The position numbers and the translations under genes were made by a program. Shown in pieces: positions 4,669 to 25,495 of a stretch of DNA of 27,784 nt. The notes under the pieces were generated by a model that did not search any database, was not told the DNA's origin, and saw only the letters and a program-made list of their open reading frames with translations. Position 1 is the stretch's first letter. The number at the start of each line of letters is the position of its first letter. This stretch comes from a virus, in IMG/VR virus record IMGVR_UViG_3300048037_000710, positions 1 through 27,784 of that record, one strand, 5' to 3'.

Positions 4669-6132
4669 ATGGCAAATGTATTACCCGAATTTGGGTCAAT
4701 TAAACCTAGTCAGAAACAACAAGTTCTGTCTACAAATTATCTGCAATTTACAGATAAAGCTGGCGATGATTTTTCAGATTTCGCAGCACAATATCTTCCT
4801 GAGATCTACGAACAAGAAGTAGAACGATATGGAAACCGAACTCTTTCTGGATTTCTACGTATGGTAGGAGCAGAAATGCCTATGACTTCAGATCAAGTAA
4901 TTTGGTCAGAACAAAATAGATTACACATTGCTTATGACAATGTTTCAAAACTTGCAAACAACGTTGATCTACAATTTACTCTTAATGCAACTGCTGGAGC
5001 CACTTTTGTTGATAACGTAGTATCTGCAAACCAAACAATTGTAGTAATGAATCCTACTACAGGTGCTGAAGTAAAAGCTTTAGTTACTGCTAGTGCTGGA
5101 TCTAACGCTGCTGGAAGTGCTAATGGTACTCTTACTGTTGCTACCTACACGGGAGCTAATCTTTCTACTGCTCTTGGAAGTGCTGGCGCAGTATTAGCTG
5201 GTCTTAAAATATTTGTATATGGTTCTGAATATAGAAAAGGAACTGGCGATGCTGATATTAGAAGCGTAACCCCATCTTTTACTCAATTTAACAATTCACC
5301 AATTATTATTAAAGAAAAATATGTGGTCAACGGATCAGATATGGCTCAAATTGGGTGGGTTGAAGTTGCTACTGAGGATGGAACATCTGGATACTTATGG
5401 TACTTAAAAGCTGAGTCCGAAACTCGTTTAAGATTTGAAGATTATTTAGAAATGGCTATGGTTGAAGGTGAGAAAGCTGCCGCAGGTTCTGGGGTTGCTG
5501 GTATTGCTGCTGATTATGGTGGGACTGAAGGTCTTTTTGCTGCTATCGAAGCTAGAGGTAATGTACTAAACAATTTTAGTGCTGCTGCCGGTCTTGGCGA
5601 ATTTGATAGTATTCTTAAAAATCTTGACACTCAAGGTGCTATTGAAGAAAACATGCTTTTCCTTAATAGAAAAACTTCTTTAGATTTTGACGATATGCTA
5701 GCTAATATTTCTTCCGGTATTGGAGGAGGTACTGCTTTTGGTTTATTTGAAAACTCTGAAGAAATGGCTTTGAATCTTGGTTTCTCAGGATTTAGAAGAG
5801 GTTCTTATGACTTTTATAAAACTGACTGGAAATATCTTAATGACGCTTCTACTAGAGGTGGAGTAACTGTTTCAGCGATTGATGGAGTTCTTATTCCTGC
5901 TGGTACATCAACTGTATACGACCAAATTTTAGGTTCTAATATTCGTAGACCTTTCTTGCACGTTCGTTACAGAGCTTCACAAACTGAAGATAGAAGAATG
6001 AAATCTTGGATTACTGGATCTGCCGGGGGTGCTTTTACTTCTGACATTGACTCTATGGATGTTCACTTCTTGTCTGAAAGATGTTTATGTGTACAAGGTG
6101 CTAACAATTTCGTATTGTTTACTGCATCATAG
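4669..6132 (+). CDS. Major capsid protein
   Basis: A 487-residue protein in the capsid position downstream of portal and scaffold. Its features fit an HK97-fold shell protein of the crAss/N4-type podoviruses. The N-terminus (MANVLPEFGSIKPSQKQQ) is an apparent N-arm. A conserved block RTLSGFLRMVGAEMPMTSDQ lies at about residues 57-76. An Ala/Gly/Thr-rich segment at about 100-190 looks like a surface insertion domain. The C-terminus closes with the hydrophobic strand GANNFVLFTAS. Codon use differs from the neighbours: Leu is often CTT here, whereas the portal uses mostly TTA, and GCT/GGT/ACT are common. This suggests selection for high expression. The start is preceded by ATTTAAAAA and no purine-rich Shine-Dalgarno. 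A strong terminator hairpin begins 6 bases after the stop. Confidence 0.82.
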   Translation: MANVLPEFGSIKPSQKQQVLSTNYLQFTDKAGDDFSDFAAQYLPEIYEQEVERYGNRTLSGFLRMVGAEMPMTSDQVIWSEQNRLHIAYDNVSKLANNVDLQFTLNATAGATFVDNVVSANQTIVVMNPTTGAEVKALVTASAGSNAAGSANGTLTVATYTGANLSTALGSAGAVLAGLKIFVYGSEYRKGTGDADIRSVTPSFTQFNNSPIIIKEKYVVNGSDMAQIGWVEVATEDGTSGYLWYLKAESETRLRFEDYLEMAMVEGEKAAAGSGVAGIAADYGGTEGLFAAIEARGNVLNNFSAAAGLGEFDSILKNLDTQGAIEENMLFLNRKTSLDFDDMLANISSGIGGGTAFGLFENSEEMALNLGFSGFRRGSYDFYKTDWKYLNDASTRGGVTVSAIDGVLIPAGTSTVYDQILGSNIRRPFLHVRYRASQTEDRRMKSWITGSAGGAFTSDIDSMDVHFLSERCLCVQGANNFVLFTAS

Positions 6133-6137
6133 TATTT

Positions 6138-6190
6138 GGTGAGATTGCCCTCGTTAAATTAACGGGGGTAAGTCTTACCTTATTTTTTTA
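6138..6190 (+). terminator. Intrinsic terminator after the capsid gene
   Basis: A long hairpin with outer arms GGTGAGA (6138-6144) and TCTTACC (6173-6179). The inner arm TTGCCCTCGTTA pairs with TAACGGGGGTAA around a 3-base AAT loop, allowing a few G-T pairs and one bulged G. A run of seven T follows at 6183-6189. It lies wholly between the capsid stop and the next start. It should end or attenuate transcripts that include the capsid gene. Confidence 0.85.
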
Positions 6191-6211
6191 ATTATTTAAT
6201 TTTATTATATC

Positions 6212-7057
6212 ATGGCTAAAAAAGCTACTCAAGCAGTAAAAGATATTGAGGTTGCACCTCAAGTAATTGAAACAAAAGAAGCTGCAAAACCCGCGGCTAA
6301 AGTATCAACACCTAAAAAACCACAATGGGAAATTAAAGACAGAACATATTTATTAAACGGTCTTAAAACTCCATTAACATATACTATATCATCTCGTCAC
6401 ACAAACCGCTATCCTTTATTATGGTTTGATAAAGAAAAAAATGAACAAAGAGAATTAAGGTATGCAACTAATCAAAATTCACCTTTAGTTGATGAACAAT
6501 CAGGCGAAGCAACATTAGGTCATATTGTTTTTAGAGATGGCACATTAACCGTAACTAAAGAAAAACAAAATTTGCAAAAATTATTATCTCTTTATCATCC
6601 AATGAAAGGAGTTAAATATACCGAATTTAATCCCGTAGAAGAAGCCGTAGATGATTTAGAAACTATTGAATATATTATTGAAGCTTTAAATGTAGCAAGA
6701 GATATGGATATAGATCAGGCTGAGGCTATTTTAAGAGTTGAGGTTGGCTCTAAGGTATCTGACATGAGTTCTAAGGAGATCAAAAGAGATCTTTTAATAT
6801 TTGCTAAAGAAAACGCTCAACTATTCTTAGAATTAGCTAATGACGAAAATGTACAATTAAGAAATGTAGCTATTAACGCTACCGAATTGGGTCTTTTAGA
6901 TTTATCACAAGATCAAAGAACTTTTGCGTGGGCTAAAACAGGAAGAAAAATAATGAACGTTCCTTTTGATGAAAACCCGTACTCAGCTATGGCTGCATTC
7001 TTTAAAACAGATGAAGGCATAGAGGTTTACAAATCTATAGAGAAAAAACTTCTATAA
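6212..7057 (+). CDS. Conserved phage protein of unknown function next to the capsid gene
   Basis: A 281-residue soluble protein. Residues 1-40 are an Ala/Lys/Pro-rich linker (KEAAKPAAKVSTPKKPQ) that is probably disordered. Residues about 45-120 look beta-rich, with the conserved-looking block RYATNQNSPLVDEQSGEATL, and seem to form a small domain. The remainder is helical and ends with the motif VPFDENPYSAMAAFFKTDEG. I associate this family from memory with marine phages, always beside the capsid gene, so a head-associated or head-completion role is possible. No catalytic motif is seen. The gene stands alone between two hairpin terminators (6138-6190 and 7077-7102), so its level may be set separately from capsid and tail genes. 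No clear promoter is visible in the 79-base upstream gap, which the terminator largely fills. Confidence 0.6.
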   Translation: MAKKATQAVKDIEVAPQVIETKEAAKPAAKVSTPKKPQWEIKDRTYLLNGLKTPLTYTISSRHTNRYPLLWFDKEKNEQRELRYATNQNSPLVDEQSGEATLGHIVFRDGTLTVTKEKQNLQKLLSLYHPMKGVKYTEFNPVEEAVDDLETIEYIIEALNVARDMDIDQAEAILRVEVGSKVSDMSSKEIKRDLLIFAKENAQLFLELANDENVQLRNVAINATELGLLDLSQDQRTFAWAKTGRKIMNVPFDENPYSAMAAFFKTDEGIEVYKSIEKKLL

Positions 7058-17361: not shown

Positions 17362-20300
17362 ATGCCAAATTATATTTTTAATGATACCGCATTAACTCAA
17401 GATGATATTGAAGAAATTGCATCTATTAAAGGTTATACTCTTGATGAGCTATTTGAAAAAAACCCAGGTATAAAAGAAACCGATTCCGATCCCAATGAAG
17501 AGGGAAAGGAAACCCCTTCACAGGAGACAGAGAGTGCAGCTGTGGAGGAAAGTGTGGCACTCGAACCTACCGTTATGGATTCCAAGTCGGTAACTATTTC
17601 ATCGGATTTACCAGAAGTTAAAACTGGTACTGTTGCAGATACAGAATATATTCCGCCTGTTGTAACTTCAAAAGAATCACAAAAAATTATTGATGACTTT
17701 AATAAAATCAGTAATGTTGATGTTGAATTTGAAAACAAAAAAGCTACCGTTGAAAAAATAAATAGATTTAAAAAAGATCAATTTAAAACGGCAGAAAGAG
17801 AGGAATATAATTTATATAAACAAACCGGAAAAGTACAGCCCGTCGTATTAGAGGGTGTAGAAGTAAAGCAAAAAATTGAAAATAACAGAAGAGATTTTAT
17901 GGAAGATATTGCGCAAGATAAACGTGTGCAATTACTTAATCAAGAAACAAAGCTTAGGGATGCTTTACTTAATACTACTAATGAATTAACTTCTAATATA
18001 AATTCTAATATAAATGCTGTTAATAATATCATTTCTCAGTATGAAGAAAGCGTTAAGCAAGGTGTTCCATATTCAGAAGAGGAGTATAATATAGCAAAAC
18101 AAAAATCTCAAGAAATTATAAAATCCACTAAGCAAATGGAAAGCAATTTGCTAAGGGATCTTGCTATTTTAAATAAAAAAAATGAGTTTATAGATTCTTT
18201 TAAAAGATCTTATAGTAATATAGATCAATTAGAAAATGTTTTAAAAACTACCACCACTGATATAGCATTGGGGTTAGCGGTACCTTTAGACATGCTTAAG
18301 TCTGAAGAGGGAAAAGAAAAGTCTTATACTAAAGACTTATTAAATTACCGCCAAAAACTTCAAAAAGAATCAGCCGAGGGTTTGCCAAAAGCTATTCCTG
18401 TAGAAAGTATTTCTAGCTTAAAGGATTTAGTTAATTGGGGATCTGATGCGTTTGTAAATTTTGTACCTAGTGGAGCGATGGCTTTTACAGGTCCCGCTGC
18501 TCCTTATTTATTTGGAGCTTCAGGCTTTGGAGGTCGAATAGCACAATTTGAATTAGATGCATTAGAAGCAAAAAATCAAATTCCTAAATTACAAGAATTA
18601 CATAGTAAATCAGACGACCCATTAGAAAAAGCGGAAATACAAAAAGAAATTGATAAATATAATGAAGCTTTAAATGTAAGTGATTTAAAAAAACTTACTG
18701 TTAGCGGAATATATGGAGCGGCTGAAGTAGGAACTGAAATGCTAACTACTGTGAGGTTGGTAAAAGATTTAAAATCTGCAAATACATTATTTTATAAAGA
18801 AGGATTTGTTCCGGCATTTAAACAAGCAATTAAAGATATTCCTGCAGGAGGCGTATTAGAAGGTGGAGGTGAAGGATTAAATAGTATTATTGGGAATGTA
18901 GCTGATATAACTATATTAAATGAAGATAAAAATGCATTTGAAGGTGTTACAGAGTCGACTGCTCAAGGATTTTTTATTGGTAATGGTTTTAAAATAGCTA
19001 ATGCTGGTAATTTAGCTAGAGCCTATGCTTATGATGTTATTACAGATAAACAAAATAAACAGGAAATTGAGAATACATTGAAAGAAATAAACAATCTTTC
19101 GAATGCTTTTACGGAAAACACCAATGCAAACACTAAAGATGAAGCTGCTCGTGTTATAAGATCTAAAATTAAAGAGCTATCATTAAATCAAGATTTTTCA
19201 GCTTCTCAATTTTTAAAGCTTTCTGAAGCTGACCAAAAAGCTGTTTTTGAAGCTGACAGACAATCTAAAAAAGTAAATAGAAGATGGAAAAAAATAGCTA
19301 ATTCTAATTTAGACGAAACTAGTAAAGATTTAATTAGAAAAGATCTTGAAGCAGAATTTAATGGGTATCAAGATAAAAAAATATCTTTACTCAGAAAATC
19401 TAATGTAAACACAGAATTGCAACAGCCCAAAGGATTACAAGAAGGAGATTTTTATAGAGGATATAAAATACATCAAGTTAATGATGCAGCTGTAAAAAAA
19501 AATAATTCTTTAAATAAGCTTGCAAATAAAGTTGTAAATGTTTTAAGTGGTGAAGCTGAAACAATAACTGATTTTATTAATTCAGATGAAACATTACTAA
19601 CTTTAAATGACGGTAGTGTAATTACAAAGGAAGAAGCGCAACAAATTAATACTATTTGGCAAAATGGTGCTGACGGTGGGTTTGACCCCATTAGTAAAAA
19701 TCAATATACTATTGTTGAAAGGGCTGCGGTAAACAACCCATCAACTGCTTTACATGAATATTTTCACGCAATGGCTGCTGAAAAAGGGTTTACAGAAGAA
19801 CAATTTAATAAAATAAAAGATAATTATATTGCTTTGTTAAATTCTAAAAAAGAAAATGGTGAATTAACAGAAAAACAATATAATAAAATTTTTAGTAGAC
19901 TTCCTATATATGATGGTAAAGTTGAACAAGCAGAAGAATTAATTAACCTTACTGCCGATGCCGTAAATTTACAAATAATTAAAGAAACGGATTTTGATTT
20001 TTTACAAAGATTCGCTAATAATGTTAAATCAATAGTAGGTTCTATAATAGGTAAAGATGAAGCTGATAATTTTAATATTAATACAGCTGAGGACGCTTGG
20101 AATATGGTACAAACTTTTTCTAAAGATGTATTAAGTTCTGCCCCCCCAAAACAAATTATAGGTACCCAACCTGAAGAAGAAGAACCAGCGGTTAAACAAG
20201 CTAAAACGGTAATTAAAGAATCAAGATCTGAAGAGGCATCTCAATCTGTATTAGAAGCTGTAAATAAACTGGTTCCCCAAGATATTACTACACAAGAAGA

Positions 20301-23300
20301 GTATCAAAGCTTTGTAAATGATCGCAGGGCTTTTCCAAAGCTTTATAGGGCAATTACTGAACAAGGAGGCGTAATTAATAATTATATTAAAAGTATATCA
20401 ACTACGCCGGAAGAAGCACAAAAAACAATAGAAAATTTAACAAATAGAATATTAAAGTTTAATCCTGAAGCTAAACGTAAAGGTACAAAAAAAGCTGTAG
20501 GCATAGAAGCCTTTGGCGAAAGAATATTTGCTGATATACAATTTGCTAGAAAAGGATCTAAGCTTGAATTATATAAAGAAAGCGAAAAAACTAAAAGAGA
20601 AAGCAGAAGAGAAGACCGTGAAGATGGCTTTGAAACTTTAGCCGCTCCGGAAACTGAAATTGAAGTTGCAGAAACAAAACCTGCGGAAAGATTAATTGAA
20701 GTTAAAAAACAAATTCTTAGTGAGCCTAATCAAAAAGAGCTTGAAGATATTGTAGCAGAAAAACTACCAGAGCTGACTCCAGATCAATTTACATTTAAAA
20801 CACTACCTAACTGGGCAAAACAAACACTTGCTAAAGAAATTGGTATACCAGTTAAGAAATTTGAAGGATCATCTAATTTTACACAAGCAGAATTAGATAA
20901 GGTTATTTCATTCATAGAAAATAACATTGATACTGTTAGAAAAGCTTTACCTGATGCTGCTGTATTAGAAGGCGCTCCTGTTAGTGAGGGTCTTATAGGC
21001 ACTGCAACTGGCGTGCCAAATAATGTGTTAAAAAACATTAACTTATACGAAAGATTGGCAAGAGGCACTAAAAAAGCGGGGTTAATTGCTTATAAAAAAT
21101 TAAAAGGTATTAATAACGATTCAATTTTAAAAGCCATAGGTATTGTTGATGGTAAAAGAACCGCTGGTCCTAGAGATAAACAAGCACAGACTGCTAAAGG
21201 TTTAATAAACATACTTGCTAAGTTCATGACTAATCAAGAGGTCCGCAAGCAAGCTGATCTTACTCCACAACAAAAAACTGATATTGAAACTGGCAAAGGA
21301 AGTAGATTATTGTTTTCAAAAACAATGCTTCCTGATGTTAGAAAAAAGCTTAGTGAAGAAATTAGCAATATTAAAGATGTTAATAAATATGAAGGTTTAA
21401 CTGATGATGTTATTATTAAAATAAAAGGAGCATTAGAAGAAAATAAAGCTAAAACTTATAATCAAGTTTTTAATGAAATTAAAAATATAACATCTAAAAC
21501 TTTAAGCGTTGCTTCTCAAAATAGATTTGAAACAGATCTTTTAAAATCATTATTTAAAATATCAGAGGGCACTGCAAGTAAAGAAAATCTTATTTCAGCT
21601 TTTGAAACTTATAGAAAATTATTTAAGTATGAACAAAGAGAAATTGGATATAATTTTGCTCGTAATTATTTAGAATTAGAATTTAAAAACGCGGAAAATA
21701 ATGAAGCTAAACAAGAGGTAGTTAAAAACTTTTTAAAATACATAAGTAGATCTATAAGAACTTTAAAAATAGATGGCATTACTACTAATGAAGCAATATT
21801 TAATAAGATTGTTAATCCTTTATTAGGGAAAAATAAATTAGGATTTGGGCTTTTAAAAGAAAAAGGAAGAACATATATAACTTTTAATAATGAAAAATTA
21901 AAAGGATTACAAGATATAACTGAAATAAAAAAAGATTTTAAAGGTAATGTTGAAACTATTCAAGCAGAGGCAGAAGAAACATTAAAATATTATAAAAAAA
22001 TAATAGATCAAGCCAAGGAGCAAGGCACTGTAGAGCAAATTAAAGGATTTATAGCTTTAACGTCGGCAGATCAAAGGGGTATGTTAAGAAAATTATCTAC
22101 TCCCGGATTTGAAATTAAAGCTCCTGGCAAAAAAATGGTGCTAGAGCATGAAACAACTGCTTTAGAATTATTTAATAAGCTTGTTGACTATGCGGATGGT
22201 AAAATTGAATTTTCCGCATTACAAAAATTTGTTTTTCAAGCAAAAGTAAATTTAATTCCAGAAACTTTAGACAAAATATTAAATGCTAAAGGCTACACTG
22301 GGAATGGCAAAAGTCGTTATAATGCGGAAGAATTTTTAAAAGTTTTACAAAAATACAAAGATCAAAGAGAAGTAATAGACTATAGCATTGATGCTAAAGG
22401 ATTAATAAAATTAAGTAAATCAATATCCAAAGCTGCAGTAAAAAACAATTTAGAATTACCTAAATCTCAACGTTTACCTAAAGGCAGTACTAATGAACAG
22501 GTATTAGATAAAATGCAAGAGCTTGATAATGAGGCTAATGAAGCTAGGATTAAATATAGCAAATCACAAGATTTAAACGAAGATTTTAATAATATTATTG
22601 AGGCTAAAACCGGCATTGCAACATATAAAAGATTTTCACCAGCTAAAGCTCAAGTAAGAGGTGCAAGCAAAGGTAAATTTAATTTCTTTATTCCGCCCAG
22701 CGCTGAAGACTTTACGGGTTTATTATATAAAACATTGGCTAAGGGTAAAGTAGGTGATACTCAAATGCAATGGTATAAAGATAATTTATTAGACCCTTAC
22801 GCTAGAGCAATGAATGATATATCTGCAGCTCGTGTAGCTATGTTTGAAGATTATAAAGCGCTTAAAAACGATTTAGAAATTATTCCTAAAAACCTTAAAA
22901 AGAAAAGTGTTGATGAATATACGAGAGAACAAGCTGTAAGAGTTTATATATGGAATGATCAAGGTAATAACGTACCTGGTTTATTTAAAACAGATCAAAA
23001 AGATTTAGTTGATTATGTAAATAAAGATTCTGAACTTAAGCTTTTTGCAGAACAACTTATAGCTATTCAAAAAAATGATGAATACTCTGCTCCTAAAGAA
23101 GGATGGCTCGCGGGTAGTATTACAACAGACTTATTAGATAATGTTAACTCTATAAAAAGAAAAAAGTATTTAGAGCAATGGCAGACTAACGTAGACCTAA
23201 TATTTTCTGAAGAAAACATGAACAAGCTTGAGGCCGCGTTTGGAAAGCCATATGTGAAAGCTTTAGAAAATATTCTTACAAGAATGAAAACCGGTAGAAA

Positions 23301-24588
23301 CAAACCATTTACAAGTGATTCTCTTGCTGGTAGAGTTACTGATTGGTTAAACAATTCTGTTGGAGCAATTATGTTTTTTAATACTAGATCAGCTGTATTA
23401 CAAACAATATCCTCAATTAACTTCGTTAACTGGAGCGACAACAATATTTATCAAGCAGGAAAAGCTCTTGCAAATCAACCACAATACTGGAAAGACTTTA
23501 AGTTTTTATTTAATTCTGACTTTTTAAAAGAAAGGCGCGGAGGTTTAAGGTTTAATGTGAGTGAATCTGAAATAGCTGATGCGGCTAAAAAAGGTGGTGC
23601 AAGAGGCGTAGTGAGCAAAATACTTCAAGCTGGATTTTTACCTACACAAGCAGCTGACAGTTTTGCAATTGCATCAGGGGGCGCAACATTTTACAGAAAT
23701 AGGATTAAATCTTATATTAAAAAAGGGTTAACAGAAGCCGAAGCGCAAGAAAAAGCATTTTTAGATTTTAGAGAAATAGCTGAAGAATCACAACAATCCT
23801 CAAGACCTGATAGAATTAGCGCACAACAAGCGGGGCCATTAGGGCGCACCATATTAGCTTTTGCAAACACCCCAGCACAATATGCTAGATTAACTAAAAA
23901 AGCCGCCAGTGATCTTATAAATAGGCGTGGCGATGCTAAAACAAATATATCTAAACTATTATATTATGGGTTTGTACAAAACTTAGTATTTAATATGCTT
24001 CAAAAAGCAGTATTTATGATTGCTTTTGGAGATGACGACGAAGATGAAAAGAAAAAAGAAGAAAAATATTTGGATGTTGCAAATGGCATGGCTGATGGTT
24101 TACTTAGAGGTATGGGTATACAGGGTGCTATTGCATCTACTCTAAAAAATACTTTAATAAAAATTATAAAAGAATCTAAAAAAGCAAGACCAGATTATGC
24201 TGAAACCGCTTTAATACAATTATTAAGTATATCTCCTCCTATTCAATCTAAAGCACAAAAAGTAAGAAGTGCTCTTAAGTCATATGAATGGAATAAAGAT
24301 GAAATGCTTAATAAAGGATTTAGCTTAGATAATCCTGCATACATGGCCGGGGCTAATGTTATATCTGCTTTTACAAATGTTCCGCTAGATAGGGTTGTTA
24401 AAAAAGTAAATAACATTGCTGCTTCAACTCAAGAAGATATATCACCTGTTGAAAGATCTATGCTAGTTGCTGGATGGAGTGAATGGGAATTAGGTATACA
24501 AAAACCTAAAAAGAAAAAGAAAAAGAAAACTAGAAGCTCTGGCAGAGGAACTAGCAGAAGTAATAGTAGATCATCAAATAGAAGATAA
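17362..24588 (+). CDS. Giant ejection (internal virion) protein with HExxH peptidase motif
   Basis: A 2408-residue protein, the longest gene in the window and nearly twice T7 gp16. Residues 1-100 are a short N-terminal motif (LTQDDIEEIASIKGYTLDEL) then an acidic Ser/Thr/Glu linker. About 362-392 (FVPSGAMAFTGPAAPYLFGA) and about 497-545 are Gly/Ala-rich, membrane-prone stretches. HEYFH at 798-802 is a zinc-peptidase HExxH motif; Glu858 or Glu859 could be the third ligand. About 1200-1320 hold a block with GTATGVPNNVLKNI that I recall from other giant marine phage proteins. About 1850-2010 include IPPSAEDFTGLLYKTLAKGK. The C-terminal region (ILAFANTPAQYARLTKKA, about 2170-2187) resembles the LPD38-type domain of phage polyvalent proteins and is followed by a hydrophobic helix near 2197-2222. 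The last 28 residues are Lys then Ser/Arg-rich. It probably travels in the capsid and is ejected with DNA. Confidence 0.65.
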   Translation: MPNYIFNDTALTQDDIEEIASIKGYTLDELFEKNPGIKETDSDPNEEGKETPSQETESAAVEESVALEPTVMDSKSVTISSDLPEVKTGTVADTEYIPPVVTSKESQKIIDDFNKISNVDVEFENKKATVEKINRFKKDQFKTAEREEYNLYKQTGKVQPVVLEGVEVKQKIENNRRDFMEDIAQDKRVQLLNQETKLRDALLNTTNELTSNINSNINAVNNIISQYEESVKQGVPYSEEEYNIAKQKSQEIIKSTKQMESNLLRDLAILNKKNEFIDSFKRSYSNIDQLENVLKTTTTDIALGLAVPLDMLKSEEGKEKSYTKDLLNYRQKLQKESAEGLPKAIPVESISSLKDLVNWGSDAFVNFVPSGAMAFTGPAAPYLFGASGFGGRIAQFELDALEAKNQIPKLQELHSKSDDPLEKAEIQKEIDKYNEALNVSDLKKLTVSGIYGAAEVGTEMLTTVRLVKDLKSANTLFYKEGFVPAFKQAIKDIPAGGVLEGGGEGLNSIIGNVADITILNEDKNAFEGVTESTAQGFFIGNGFKIANAGNLARAYAYDVITDKQNKQEIENTLKEINNLSNAFTENTNANTKDEAARVIRSKIKELSLNQDFSASQFLKLSEADQKAVFEADRQSKKVNRRWKKIANSNLDETSKDLIRKDLEAEFNGYQDKKISLLRKSNVNTELQQPKGLQEGDFYRGYKIHQVNDAAVKKNNSLNKLANKVVNVLSGEAETITDFINSDETLLTLNDGSVITKEEAQQINTIWQNGADGGFDPISKNQYTIVERAAVNNPSTALHEYFHAMAAEKGFTEEQFNKIKDNYIALLNSKKENGELTEKQYNKIFSRLPIYDGKVEQAEELINLTADAVNLQIIKETDFDFLQRFANNVKSIVGSIIGKDEADNFNINTAEDAWNMVQTFSKDVLSSAPPKQIIGTQPEEEEPAVKQAKTVIKESRSEEASQSVLEAVNKLVPQDITTQEEYQSFVNDRRAFPKLYRAITEQGGVINNYIKSISTTPEEAQKTIENLTNRILKFNPEAKRKGTKKAVGIEAFGERIFADIQFARKGSKLELYKESEKTKRESRREDREDGFETLAAPETEIEVAETKPAERLIEVKKQILSEPNQKELEDIVAEKLPELTPDQFTFKTLPNWAKQTLAKEIGIPVKKFEGSSNFTQAELDKVISFIENNIDTVRKALPDAAVLEGAPVSEGLIGTATGVPNNVLKNINLYERLARGTKKAGLIAYKKLKGINNDSILKAIGIVDGKRTAGPRDKQAQTAKGLINILAKFMTNQEVRKQADLTPQQKTDIETGKGSRLLFSKTMLPDVRKKLSEEISNIKDVNKYEGLTDDVIIKIKGALEENKAKTYNQVFNEIKNITSKTLSVASQNRFETDLLKSLFKISEGTASKENLISAFETYRKLFKYEQREIGYNFARNYLELEFKNAENNEAKQEVVKNFLKYISRSIRTLKIDGITTNEAIFNKIVNPLLGKNKLGFGLLKEKGRTYITFNNEKLKGLQDITEIKKDFKGNVETIQAEAEETLKYYKKIIDQAKEQGTVEQIKGFIALTSADQRGMLRKLSTPGFEIKAPGKKMVLEHETTALELFNKLVDYADGKIEFSALQKFVFQAKVNLIPETLDKILNAKGYTGNGKSRYNAEEFLKVLQKYKDQREVIDYSIDAKGLIKLSKSISKAAVKNNLELPKSQRLPKGSTNEQVLDKMQELDNEANEARIKYSKSQDLNEDFNNIIEAKTGIATYKRFSPAKAQVRGASKGKFNFFIPPSAEDFTGLLYKTLAKGKVGDTQMQWYKDNLLDPYARAMNDISAARVAMFEDYKALKNDLEIIPKNLKKKSVDEYTREQAVRVYIWNDQGNNVPGLFKTDQKDLVDYVNKDSELKLFAEQLIAIQKNDEYSAPKEGWLAGSITTDLLDNVNSIKRKKYLEQWQTNVDLIFSEENMNKLEAAFGKPYVKALENILTRMKTGRNKPFTSDSLAGRVTDWLNNSVGAIMFFNTRSAVLQTISSINFVNWSDNNIYQAGKALANQPQYWKDFKFLFNSDFLKERRGGLRFNVSESEIADAAKKGGARGVVSKILQAGFLPTQAADSFAIASGGATFYRNRIKSYIKKGLTEAEAQEKAFLDFREIAEESQQSSRPDRISAQQAGPLGRTILAFANTPAQYARLTKKAASDLINRRGDAKTNISKLLYYGFVQNLVFNMLQKAVFMIAFGDDDEDEKKKEEKYLDVANGMADGLLRGMGIQGAIASTLKNTLIKIIKESKKARPDYAETALIQLLSISPPIQSKAQKVRSALKSYEWNKDEMLNKGFSLDNPAYMAGANVISAFTNVPLDRVVKKVNNIAASTQEDISPVERSMLVAGWSEWELGIQKPKKKKKKKTRSSGRGTSRSNSRSSNRR

Positions 24589-24589
24589 T

Positions 24590-24742
24590 ATGAATTCACC
24601 ATTGTATGCAAAAATTAGCGGACCTTGCAAAGCCGCTGCAAAAAGAAAATTTAAAGTATGGCCATCTGCCTATGCTTCAGGTTGGGGCGTAAGATGTACA
24701 AGTGCAGGTGGGCCTGGTAAAATGGGTAAAAAGAAAAAATAA
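24590..24742 (+). CDS. Small basic protein with WPSAYASG motif
   Basis: A 50-residue gene starting 1 base after the giant gene's stop. The protein has two cysteines (GPCKAAAKRKFKVWPSAYAS, then GVRC) and ends KMGKKKK. The K-x-W-P-S-A-Y-A-S-G motif followed by a Cys is one I recall from a small domain of unknown function found in marine phages and large DNA viruses of eukaryotes (DUF5872-like; recalled from memory, not checked). The tight spacing (1 base before, 2 bases after), the intact frame and the motif support a real gene. A nucleic-acid-binding or zinc-binding role would fit the charge and the cysteines, but is a guess. Confidence 0.65.
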   Translation: MNSPLYAKISGPCKAAAKRKFKVWPSAYASGWGVRCTSAGGPGKMGKKKK

Positions 24743-24744
24743 TT

Positions 24745-24867
24745 ATGGACAAAAATTTAAAATCAATTGTAGGGGAACTTAAAAAAGCTTCTCGCATGCA
24801 TGCCGCACAAGCTAAAAAAATTGAAGGGCATATTAAAGCTATGCAAAAAATGAATAAGAAAAAGTAA
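24745..24867 (+). CDS. Tiny Lys-rich helical protein
   Basis: A 40-residue gene starting 2 bases after the preceding stop and ending 2 bases before the next start, so it is embedded in a tight gene string. The sequence is a single predicted amphipathic helix (LKSIVGELKKASRMHAAQAK) with a basic C-terminus ending MNKKK. There are no cysteines or membrane segment. It is real mainly by spacing and by the absence of any better frame. The function is unknown. The Lys-rich end is shared with the genes on either side. Confidence 0.55.
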   Translation: MDKNLKSIVGELKKASRMHAAQAKKIEGHIKAMQKMNKKK

Positions 24868-24869
24868 TT

Positions 24870-25148
24870 ATGGCATTTGAACAAAACAATTCTCCGTTTC
24901 AAAAGCAAAAGGGTGGTGGCACAACAAAAGCTTGTTTACCACTTGCTAAAATACGTAGTATGAGTAAATCTGAAAAAGATAAAGTTGTTCGTGCTAAAAG
25001 AAAAGCTGGCAAAGCGGGTAAGTATAAAAGAGATTCTAAAACGAACGTAAAAGGTGCAAGCACTAAAGGTGGCACGCTGCGTGATTGGTTTGAAAAAGAA
25101 GACTGGAGGCAAGTATCTAACCCTAGTAAAAAATGTGGTGAAAAATGA
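24870..25148 (+). CDS. Small basic protein of unknown function
   Basis: A 92-residue, strongly basic protein. It has a Gly/Gln/Lys N-terminus (SPFQKQKGGGTTKACLP), a helical segment LAKIRSMSKSEKDKVVRAKR, and a C-terminal block GGTLRDWFEKEDWRQVSNPS closing with KKC. I recall similar proteins as conserved hypotheticals in marine phages, with no known activity. Two cysteines (residue about 22 and near the C-terminus) could bind metal or form a disulfide. The stop overlaps the next start by ATGA (25145-25148), so translation of the peptidase gene is probably coupled to it. No holin-like membrane helix is seen here, although the gene precedes the putative endolysin. Confidence 0.7.
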   Translation: MAFEQNNSPFQKQKGGGTTKACLPLAKIRSMSKSEKDKVVRAKRKAGKAGKYKRDSKTNVKGASTKGGTLRDWFEKEDWRQVSNPSKKCGEK

Positions 25149-25495
25149 AATATTTTAACGACAAAGAAGATTTTAAAGGCAACATGGACAAAATGGATCC
25201 TAAGCTGTTGACCATGCTTGATGAGCTTCGCGAAGAATATGGCCAGCCTATTATTCTTAATTCTTCATATAGATCTGCCTCTCATCCTGTAGAAATTGTA
25301 AAAAGCAAACCAGGTGAGCACACATATGGCGCCGCAGTAGATATTAAATGCGCTGGCGGTGAAAATACATTTAATTTGGTAAGCGCAGCTATTAAAGTTG
25401 GATTCAGACGCATAGGAATATCGCGTAAAAGTAATTTTGTACACGTTGGAATTGGTTATCCTAACGCGCCTGAAACAACTATTTGGACATATTAA
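25145..25495 (+). CDS. M15-family peptidase, probable endolysin
   Basis: A 116-residue single-domain protein of the Peptidase_M15_3 / D-Ala-D-Ala carboxypeptidase type. The order of motifs is clear: NSSYRSASHP at residues 39-48, then GEHTYGAAVDI at 57-67 (zinc ligands His59 and Asp66, the HxxxxxxD pattern), then FVHVG at 98-102 with the third ligand His100. Such enzymes cut peptide stem bonds of peptidoglycan. There is no signal peptide or cell-wall-binding domain, as is common for endolysins of Gram-negative hosts. It is last in the late gene string, so host lysis is the likely role; a virion-borne murein peptidase is the alternative. Its start overlaps the upstream stop (ATGA), and its stop overlaps the convergent reductase stop. 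Confidence 0.85.
   Translation: MKYFNDKEDFKGNMDKMDPKLLTMLDELREEYGQPIILNSSYRSASHPVEIVKSKPGEHTYGAAVDIKCAGGENTFNLVSAAIKVGFRRIGISRKSNFVHVGIGYPNAPETTIWTY
25492..25495. other. Shared TTAA: overlapping convergent stop codons
   Basis: The plus-strand peptidase gene stops with TAA at 25493-25495. The minus-strand nrdA gene stops with TAA read from 25494 to 25492. The palindrome TTAA thus serves both genes. No terminator hairpin lies between them, so each transcript must run into the other gene unless it is ended inside it. Confidence 0.95.

Follow-up and report, generated by a model that had tools for sequence, protein, structure and literature searches.

What do three tiny, lysine-rich genes contribute to a phage when they lie almost end to end between the gene for a giant ejection-type protein and the gene for an endolysin? 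The locus belongs to the virus record IMGVR_UViG_3300048037_000710; the window, meaning the whole stretch that we analysed, has 27,784 bases. A preliminary description of this DNA had drawn attention to the genes and offered DNA condensation or capsid cargo as possible roles, and our reading of the sequences comes close to that. We suggest that the three products, called g1, g2 and g3 here, are virion proteins, most likely of the capsid interior, where they would be bound to DNA or to the head and would become locked by disulfides after lysis. This reading has about an even chance of being right. Absent from the preliminary description were a cassette shared by many phages, a relation to the Pfam family DUF5872, a circular permutation of g3 and the paired cysteines as the most informative feature.

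The locus and its neighbours

17362-24588, plus strand: gene of the ejection or internal-virion type, 2408 aa, with a basic tail and without Cys (context)
24590-24742, plus strand: g1, a 50-aa basic protein with the 'PSAYASG' module, relative of the first half of DUF5872, predicted at low confidence to be a helical hairpin
24626-24628, plus strand: codon of g1 Cys13 (model column 8; partner column 31)
24695-24697, plus strand: codon of g1 Cys36 (model column 31; partner column 8)
24745-24867, plus strand: g2, a 40-aa basic helix module with LKKASxxHAxQAxxIxxHI, fused to g1 or g3 elsewhere
24870-25148, plus strand: g3, a basic protein of 92 aa, related in circularly permuted form to the second half of DUF5872
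24912-25052, plus strand: 'CLP..K..SMS' half of g3 (second in non-flavophage g3)
25071-25145, plus strand: 'LRDWFEKEDW..CG' half of g3 (first in non-flavophage g3)
25145-25495, plus strand: M15 peptidase endolysin, overlapping the end of g3 by 4 bp (context)

The ORF coordinates bear out what had been described, namely genes of 50, 40 and 92 residues separated by one or two bases: the giant gene stops at 24588, a 1-bp gap leads to g1, and the g1-g2 and g2-g3 gaps are 2 bp each. All three had been called strongly basic, and their net charges at pH 7 are indeed about +11.5, +8.7 and +15.5 for g1, g2 and g3 (pI 10.3-10.5). Terminal lysine runs were correctly reported for g1 (KMGKKKK) and g2 (MNKKK), but only partly so for the giant gene, in which seven Lys stand about 20-26 residues before the end and the final residues are rich in Arg and Ser. 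The paired cysteines noticed in two of the genes are those of g1 and g3, with two each and zero in g2, and the WPSAYASG motif is located in g1. Zero Cys were found in the 2408-aa gene and in each of four further late genes that were examined. A HEYFHAMA motif resembling that of zinc proteases was seen by eye in the giant protein. The M15 gene matched Pfam M15_3 (4e-16) and a PHROG endolysin family (2.5e-24). We agree that none of the three genes looks like a holin; a holin of the XhlA type was considered for g2 and rejected, as g2 scored 13.5 bits against a cut-off of 34.7 and no hydrophobic stretch was seen by eye in g1, g2 or g3.

The portal protein of the window matched 87 phage records (68 of Flavobacterium, 15 of Cellulophaga, 2 of Tenacibaculum, 1 of Maribacter and 1 unclassified), with an identity of 43-51% among the 25 matches listed. 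Judging from these matches, the host of the window phage is probably a flavobacterium.

Reality of the three genes

A chain of three abutting ATG ORFs of at least 40 aa occurred in only one of 3000 mononucleotide shuffles of the region. Relatives of g1 were found in at least 579 stretches of IMG/VR. Nine close relatives of g3 were compared, and the gene order held, with g1 upstream in all nine and M15 downstream in eight, the remaining contig ending there. The pN/pS ratio was 0-0.29 for g1 (10 pairs with relatives) and 0.05-0.22 for g3 (7 pairs, from the nine relatives). Both genes are under purifying selection, and the refuting condition named in the preliminary description, frames without conservation or selection, does not hold for them. 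As for g2, a close syntenic relative was absent among the nine nearest relatives of g3, where its place was taken by nothing, by a PAP2-like gene, which fell slightly short of the PF01569 cut-off (26.5 against 27.2 bits, E 6e-6), or by other basic ORFs. We accept g2 as a real gene because of its homology to modules elsewhere. The possibility of orphan or spurious ORFs was thus ruled out for g1 and g3 by homology and selection, and for g2 by homology. The PAP2-like phosphatase gene occurred in 24 of the 80 loci found with a g1 query, and in L001 (6153-6704) it lies between g1 and g3.

It had also been remarked that such small genes easily escape automatic callers, and public phage records illustrate this. 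DSL-LC04 has no annotation for its g3 homologue, CRP-207 and 023Pt_psg01 have a partial one, and the CDS listed for CRP-2 sits in another frame; sites without annotation or with a wrong one are found at L111 about 5990-6255, L102 about 4687-4920, L105 about 6210-6455 and L113 about 2308-2502. Searches of phages with the window g3 (tblastn) and with the region (blastn) gave no match. A weak tblastn signal pointed to annotated phages with the cassette, and their g3 homologues were reached by using the homologue of HTVC027P as query. The g1 and g3 searches matched no phage of the nearest cultured relatives, Flavobacterium elemo and Maribacter Panino, whose gene lists were of no help either. Literature searches on two motif strings and on DUF6321 found nothing.

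A cassette of small basic modules in aquatic phages

From sequence likeness, g1, g2 and g3 are part of a widespread and hardly studied kit of small basic modules in unrelated aquatic phages. They co-occur with the basic families A, D (DUF6321), E, F and G in several phage types: phages of the flavophage type, phages of Pelagibacter and of Roseobacter, and T7-like phages of cyanobacteria. We ran nine module models (eight families, with g3 as two halves) on 270 sources, and none of the nine had any match at E<1e-3 in the reversed-sequence control. Of 80 loci found with a g1 query, 72 carried g3, 28 each carried D and F, and G, E, g2 and A occurred in 23, 21, 19 and 18, respectively; 80 loci from a D query held g1 in 46 and g3 in 42, and 73 new loci from a g3 query held g1 in 71 and D in 58, all these counts being affected by the many contigs that are short. 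Between g1 and g3, the median distance came to 601.5 bp in the g1-query loci (n=72), 99 bp in the D-query loci (n=42) and 114 bp in the g3-query loci (n=71). With a Roseobacter-type g1 query, g3 accompanied g1 in 80 of 80 loci and A did so in 64, and two sets of 80 loci found with A contained g1 in 15 and 43.

The annotated phages give the same picture. In the Pelagibacter phage HTVC027P, the consecutive genes gp49, gp50 and gp51 are homologues of g1, g3 and g2, and gp52 belongs to DUF6321 (family D). The T7-like cyanophage P-SCSP2 has g1, g3 and D between its scaffold and capsid genes; HTVC106P, CRP-207 and CRP-2 each have A, g1 and g3, and DSL-LC04 has D, g1 and g3. The g2 model, although seeded on flavophage-type loci only, found 18 places outside them at E<1e-3, among them HTVC027P gp51 (9e-11) beside the g1, g3 and D genes of that phage. 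In the window, zero matches to family D were found.

Each of six IMG/VR scans, with queries from g1, g3, A and D, gave at least 578-599 confirmed relatives. A short pattern searched over 84,980 cellular genomes gave 48 loci, of which 43 were titled as MAGs and 5 bore single-cell-style AG names; the families look viral, since the cellular loci carry only titles of these kinds. The PSAYA motif of g1 was invariant in all 17 aligned sequences.

A short tag, [STN]P[LFIM], often with Lys after it, was observed at module starts, N-termini and fusion joints of otherwise unrelated small basic proteins (for example L003:5887-6147, L026:6599-6985 and L015:7625-8035 in flavophage-type loci). It occurred 14 times in 32 small basic clusters compared with 3.1 in shuffles (sd 1.8), and 4 times within the first 40 residues compared with 1.2 (maximum of 300 shuffles, 5); other small clusters were also somewhat enriched (11 compared with 5.9, sd 2.3). 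The tag could be a targeting or processing signal.

Fusions and relation to Pfam families

Fusions link the modules with one another. Genes g1 and g2 formed a fusion in 16 loci, including 4 that do not belong to the flavophage-type set, and g2 and g3 did so in 4. In the T4-like cyanophage Bellamy, gp123, encoded between terS and terL, combines E, g3, g1 and D in one protein, and gp029 of S-SCSM1 is a fusion of g3, g1 and D; in these two proteins only the second half of g3 passed the model (3e-5 and 4e-4), and the first half was recognised by eye. S-RIM8 gp114 contains g1 and D, plus a g3-like stretch seen by eye. The T4-GC119/phrog_727 protein, to which S-RIM8 gp114 and S-SCSM1 gp029 belong, contains g1, D and g3-like modules, but it is a single large fused protein, compared with separate genes in the window, and most of the listed records call it hypothetical.

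Profile matches indicate that the Pfam family DUF5872 (PF19197; gathering cut-off 27.5 bits) corresponds to g1 and g3 within one domain. The g1-type and g3-type homologues match separate halves of the profile above the cut-off: CRP-207 gp70 scored 33.8 bits on positions 1-52 and P-SCSP2 gp22 scored 53.3 bits on positions 55-112. HTVC027P gp50 reached 21 bits, under the cut-off, and HTVC027P gp49 and HTVC106P gp25 had no match to this profile. The window g1 scored 15.8 bits, also under 27.5, and the window g3 had no match at E 10. The window locus differs from DUF5872 in that the g1 and g3 modules, while in that order, are separate genes with g2 between them and g3 is permuted. DUF6321 (PF19846, family D) shares the cassette, and T4-like cyanophages have it in fusion proteins together with g1 and g3 modules, but the window is without a D match. 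Family A (L102:4228-4503) matched the central part of phrog_220 ('minor head protein and DNA pilot'; 4.6e-6, 0.0085), which suggests that A is also a module in a large virion protein.

Circular permutation of g3

The two halves of g3 occur in both orders, and the gene is, by alignment, circularly permuted between flavophage-type and other loci. The CLP half came first in 63 distinct sequences from flavophage-type loci, and the DWF-EDW-CG half came first in 102 distinct sequences from elsewhere, with no exception in this first set. Among held-out loci, 29 had a g3 with the DWF-EDW-CG half first and 3 had the CLP half first, the latter titled as Saprospiraceae, Aliivibrio and Cryomorphaceae bins. 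Smith-Waterman alignment of the two halves with three homologues of opposite order gave Z values of 8.6/3.3, 6.6/6.0 and 6.1/4.3; in the lowest of these comparisons, the best score among 300 shuffles was 42, above the score of 36 for the real sequences.

Structure prediction with AlphaFold was poor for a natural g2-g1 fusion (pLDDT 66, pTM 0.33) and for g3 (pLDDT 60, pTM 0.43). At this low confidence, g2 is predicted to be one long helix, g1 a helical hairpin, and g3 a set of helices with a strand from each half; the models are unfit for measuring Cys distances because of the low pLDDT. Sequence searches for relatives of solved structure gave none that was accepted, the best being the ribosomal protein eS1 (E 0.62, not significant), and a Foldseek search with the low-confidence g3 model gave no match.

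Cysteines are gained and lost in pairs

The key result, as read from the alignments, is that the cysteines of these modules are gained and lost in pairs. The models of g1, A, E and F contain 12 variable Cys columns in total, and each of these has a concordant partner. For g1 there are two geometries, columns 5 and 32 or columns 8 and 31. Sequences with both, one or none of the cysteines numbered 94/0/121 for g1(5,32) and 103/0/119 for g1(8,31); at 90% non-redundancy the counts were 12/0/28 and 19/0/25, and at 80% they were 5/0/10 (Fisher 3e-4) and 5/0/12 (Fisher 2e-4), p-values that overstate independence, because sequences are related and some contigs occur twice. The pattern nevertheless recurs in several families and in two g1 geometries despite the relatedness. 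The raw counts were 13/0/18 for E, 15/0/14 for F, and 19/0/3 and 5/0/17 for the two pairs of A. In D, both Cys were present in 168 of 168 sequences with both columns aligned. The second Cys of G lies outside the model, and 15 of 21 distinct segments held two Cys and 6 held zero. Although g3 is permuted, each of its halves kept one Cys in every non-redundant sequence (23 of 23 and 24 of 24).

The pairs were tested again on 288 held-out loci that had not been used in their discovery. Held-out E sequences had zero Cys (0/0/13) and F had zero matches, so that the retest covers the g1 and A pairs. Counts of both, one and none were 116/0/128 for A(59,73) (30/0/41 at 90% non-redundancy), 6/0/219 for A(1,20), 43/0/136 for g1(5,32) (11/0/40) and 12/3/171 for g1(8,31) (8/2/44). 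Two of the three exceptions at g1(8,31) had a Cys moved to the C-terminus, and one was a true single. Outside the cassette, by our count, 2 of 33 variable Cys column pairs in other clusters of the same loci were without discordance; 6 of the 33 come from a cluster of probably antisense ORFs, and one of the two discordance-free pairs belongs to a protein whose start resembles a signal peptide. In one cassette cluster of mixed content, 0 of 6 variable Cys pairs were free of discordance.

The residues that replace the cysteines are also informative. At A(59,73), the 183 distinct held-out sequences included Cys-Cys in 82, Lys-Asp in 67 and Lys-Asn in 23; at g1(5,32), the 113 distinct sequences included Tyr-Tyr in 65, Cys-Cys in 23 and Trp-Tyr in 12. 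At these two pairs the replacements read as those expected of touching residues; at the remaining four of the six variable pairs a clear replacement of the contact type was not seen. Zinc binding was considered less likely than disulfides, as only two Cys vary and, at two of the pairs, Lys-Asp/Asn or Tyr-Tyr can stand in their place. One sub-group of flavophages has E, F and G without Cys pairs while g1 keeps its own (L003, L010, L038, L040 and L051 compared with L005, L057 and L061), and family G of L070 has two Cys at other positions. We infer that the pairs form disulfides, one per module and two in some A. Disulfides are not expected in proteins that act only within the reducing cytoplasm. 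Because the pairs read as disulfides and no signal peptide is visible, the proteins would be used outside the cell in the virion.

Evidence on residence in the virion

Virion residence is supported only through the larger fused relatives in T4-like cyanophages; the proteomic evidence comes from these and from no phage with separate g1, g2 and g3 genes. Trypsin suits the three window proteins poorly, as it would yield only 3, 2 and 3 peptides of 7-30 aa from them. The fusion protein gp029 of S-SCSM1, with a g3 half, g1 and D, is labelled 'virion protein' in its record. By our count, 47 CDS of that record bear the label, which seems to follow an MS proteome: terS and terL are unlabelled, and a translation repressor and an NMNAT are labelled. 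The S-SCSM1 paper gives 45 MS-detected proteins compared with 47 labels, so that the equation of label and detection is not strictly proven. For S-CREM2 gp137, which has D at its C-terminus as its only module of the cassette, Table 3 of PMC10665884 gives four unique peptides and 4.1% coverage from CsCl-purified virions. The records of S-P4 and RN05-S label homologues as structural proteins; most of the listed records of cyanophage homologues say hypothetical, as does Sullivan 2010 for the family T4-GC119. Statements from the literature come from portions of PMC10665884, PMC9602691, PMC3037559, PMC9026906, PMC12085832, PMC10575957, PMC9964418 and PMC11440229.

Of the 16 annotated phages inspected, 13 have the modules close to genes for the head, the neck or packaging, and in HTVC106P, HTVC203P and HTVC023P they lie near an M15-annotated gene. 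In T4-like cyanophages, the neighbours of the fused gene, which is close to terS or terL, include genes for tail fibres and other structural proteins, a point against our reading.

Possible role of the cassette

On the reading that we prefer, residence in the virion under a disulfide lock, the small basic modules would be made in reduced form in the cytoplasm, probably late, as the position of the genes suggests. Each module with cysteines would fold so that its two Cys face each other, and the positive charge would hold the modules on the packaged DNA or on acidic head or ejection proteins. When lysis brings the particle into an oxidising medium, the pair would close into one disulfide that locks the fold, and reduction and release might follow on entry into a new host. 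The g2 module may connect g1 with g3, as a helical linker or an oligomerisation element; its want of Cys and its absence from the nearest relatives count against the preferred reading. The modules would act like the small basic internal proteins of T4, which are packaged, bind DNA and vary, although the cassette is shared by unrelated aquatic phages. As described in PMC9026906, IPI, IPII and IPIII are small, basic, several per phage and variable between relatives, and bind DNA at low salt. They carry an N-terminal capsid-targeting propeptide that is cut by the prohead protease, to which the [STN]P[LFIM] tag was compared as a possible counterpart. The cassette families differ from them in their paired Cys and in their spread over several types of phage.

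The same T4 proteins bring up another explanation, unlikely in our judgement, in which the modules are effectors that the capsid carries along and delivers with the DNA, to work in the new host by anti-restriction, anti-defence or takeover of the nucleoid, as IPI does, the disulfides being only protective outside cells. The T4 internal proteins are ejected and IPI inhibits a restriction enzyme (PMC9026906). The position of g1-g3 directly behind the ejection module would suit such effectors, as would the make-up of the cassette, which differs between close relatives in having a PAP2-like gene, another gene or nothing for g2. However, conservation across phages of unrelated hosts, as in the PSAYA motif of g1, is unlike host-specific effectors.

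It is rather improbable that the modules are decoration or staple proteins of the capsid, neck or tail, placed outside or in the shell and not associated with DNA. The genes of DSL-LC04 stand between those for a cement protein and an adaptor, the modules are near neck and fibre genes in T4-like cyanophages, and disulfides suit surface proteins. The very high positive charge argues against such a role, and a term search of the main text of the cryo-EM report on the T7-like cyanophage P-SCSP1u gave no mention of disulfides, hypothetical proteins or unknown function, a result that counts only if this isolate carries the cassette.

Helpers of DNA packaging or head assembly that act late, inside the cell and outside the virion, are quite improbable. 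Bellamy, S-CREM2 and S-SCSM1 have the gene between terS and terL, and P-SCSP2 has its genes between those for scaffold and capsid; these would be the right places. However, the gain and loss of paired Cys suggests disulfides, which would be out of place in such factors, and the label of S-SCSM1 gp029 and the virion peptides of S-CREM2 point to the particle. A role as cationic lysis helpers of the M15 endolysin is highly improbable: M15 adjoins the cassette in the window, occurs in 42 of the 80 g1-query loci and is near it in the three HTVC phages named above, but elsewhere the cassette is near head or packaging genes, and the stretch seen there contains no gene annotated for lysis; a signal peptide and a hydrophobic face are absent by eye.

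An extension of the disulfide-locked virion reading would compare the cassette with protamines, which are basic, condense DNA, are locked by disulfides in the particle and are reduced on entry. The likeness is one of working only, in the basic charge and the Cys pairing, both known here from sequence. A literature search on protamine, disulfide and phage gave nothing on phages, judged by titles. The modules would be packed with the DNA, the disulfide (in some families, a salt bridge or an aromatic pair in its place) would close in oxygenated water, and the reducing cytoplasm of the host would free the genome; the g1 and g3 modules, fused as DUF5872, would have been taken up by algal giant viruses. 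We consider this protamine-like kit unlikely. DUF5872, of unknown function in Pfam, is also annotated in the algal giant virus CpV-BQ1, according to PMC12085832.

Significance

The Pfam families and nearly all of the PHROG families matched here are of unknown function, despite many hundreds of relatives in IMG/VR. The g3 domains switch their order, and Cys pairs take turns with salt-bridge or Tyr pairs; both offer a clean natural experiment in protein evolution. If the modules are indeed redox-locked virion proteins, a large set of hypothetical genes of aquatic phages would have a common role, and the survival of phage DNA and particles in oxygenated water would become a testable question.
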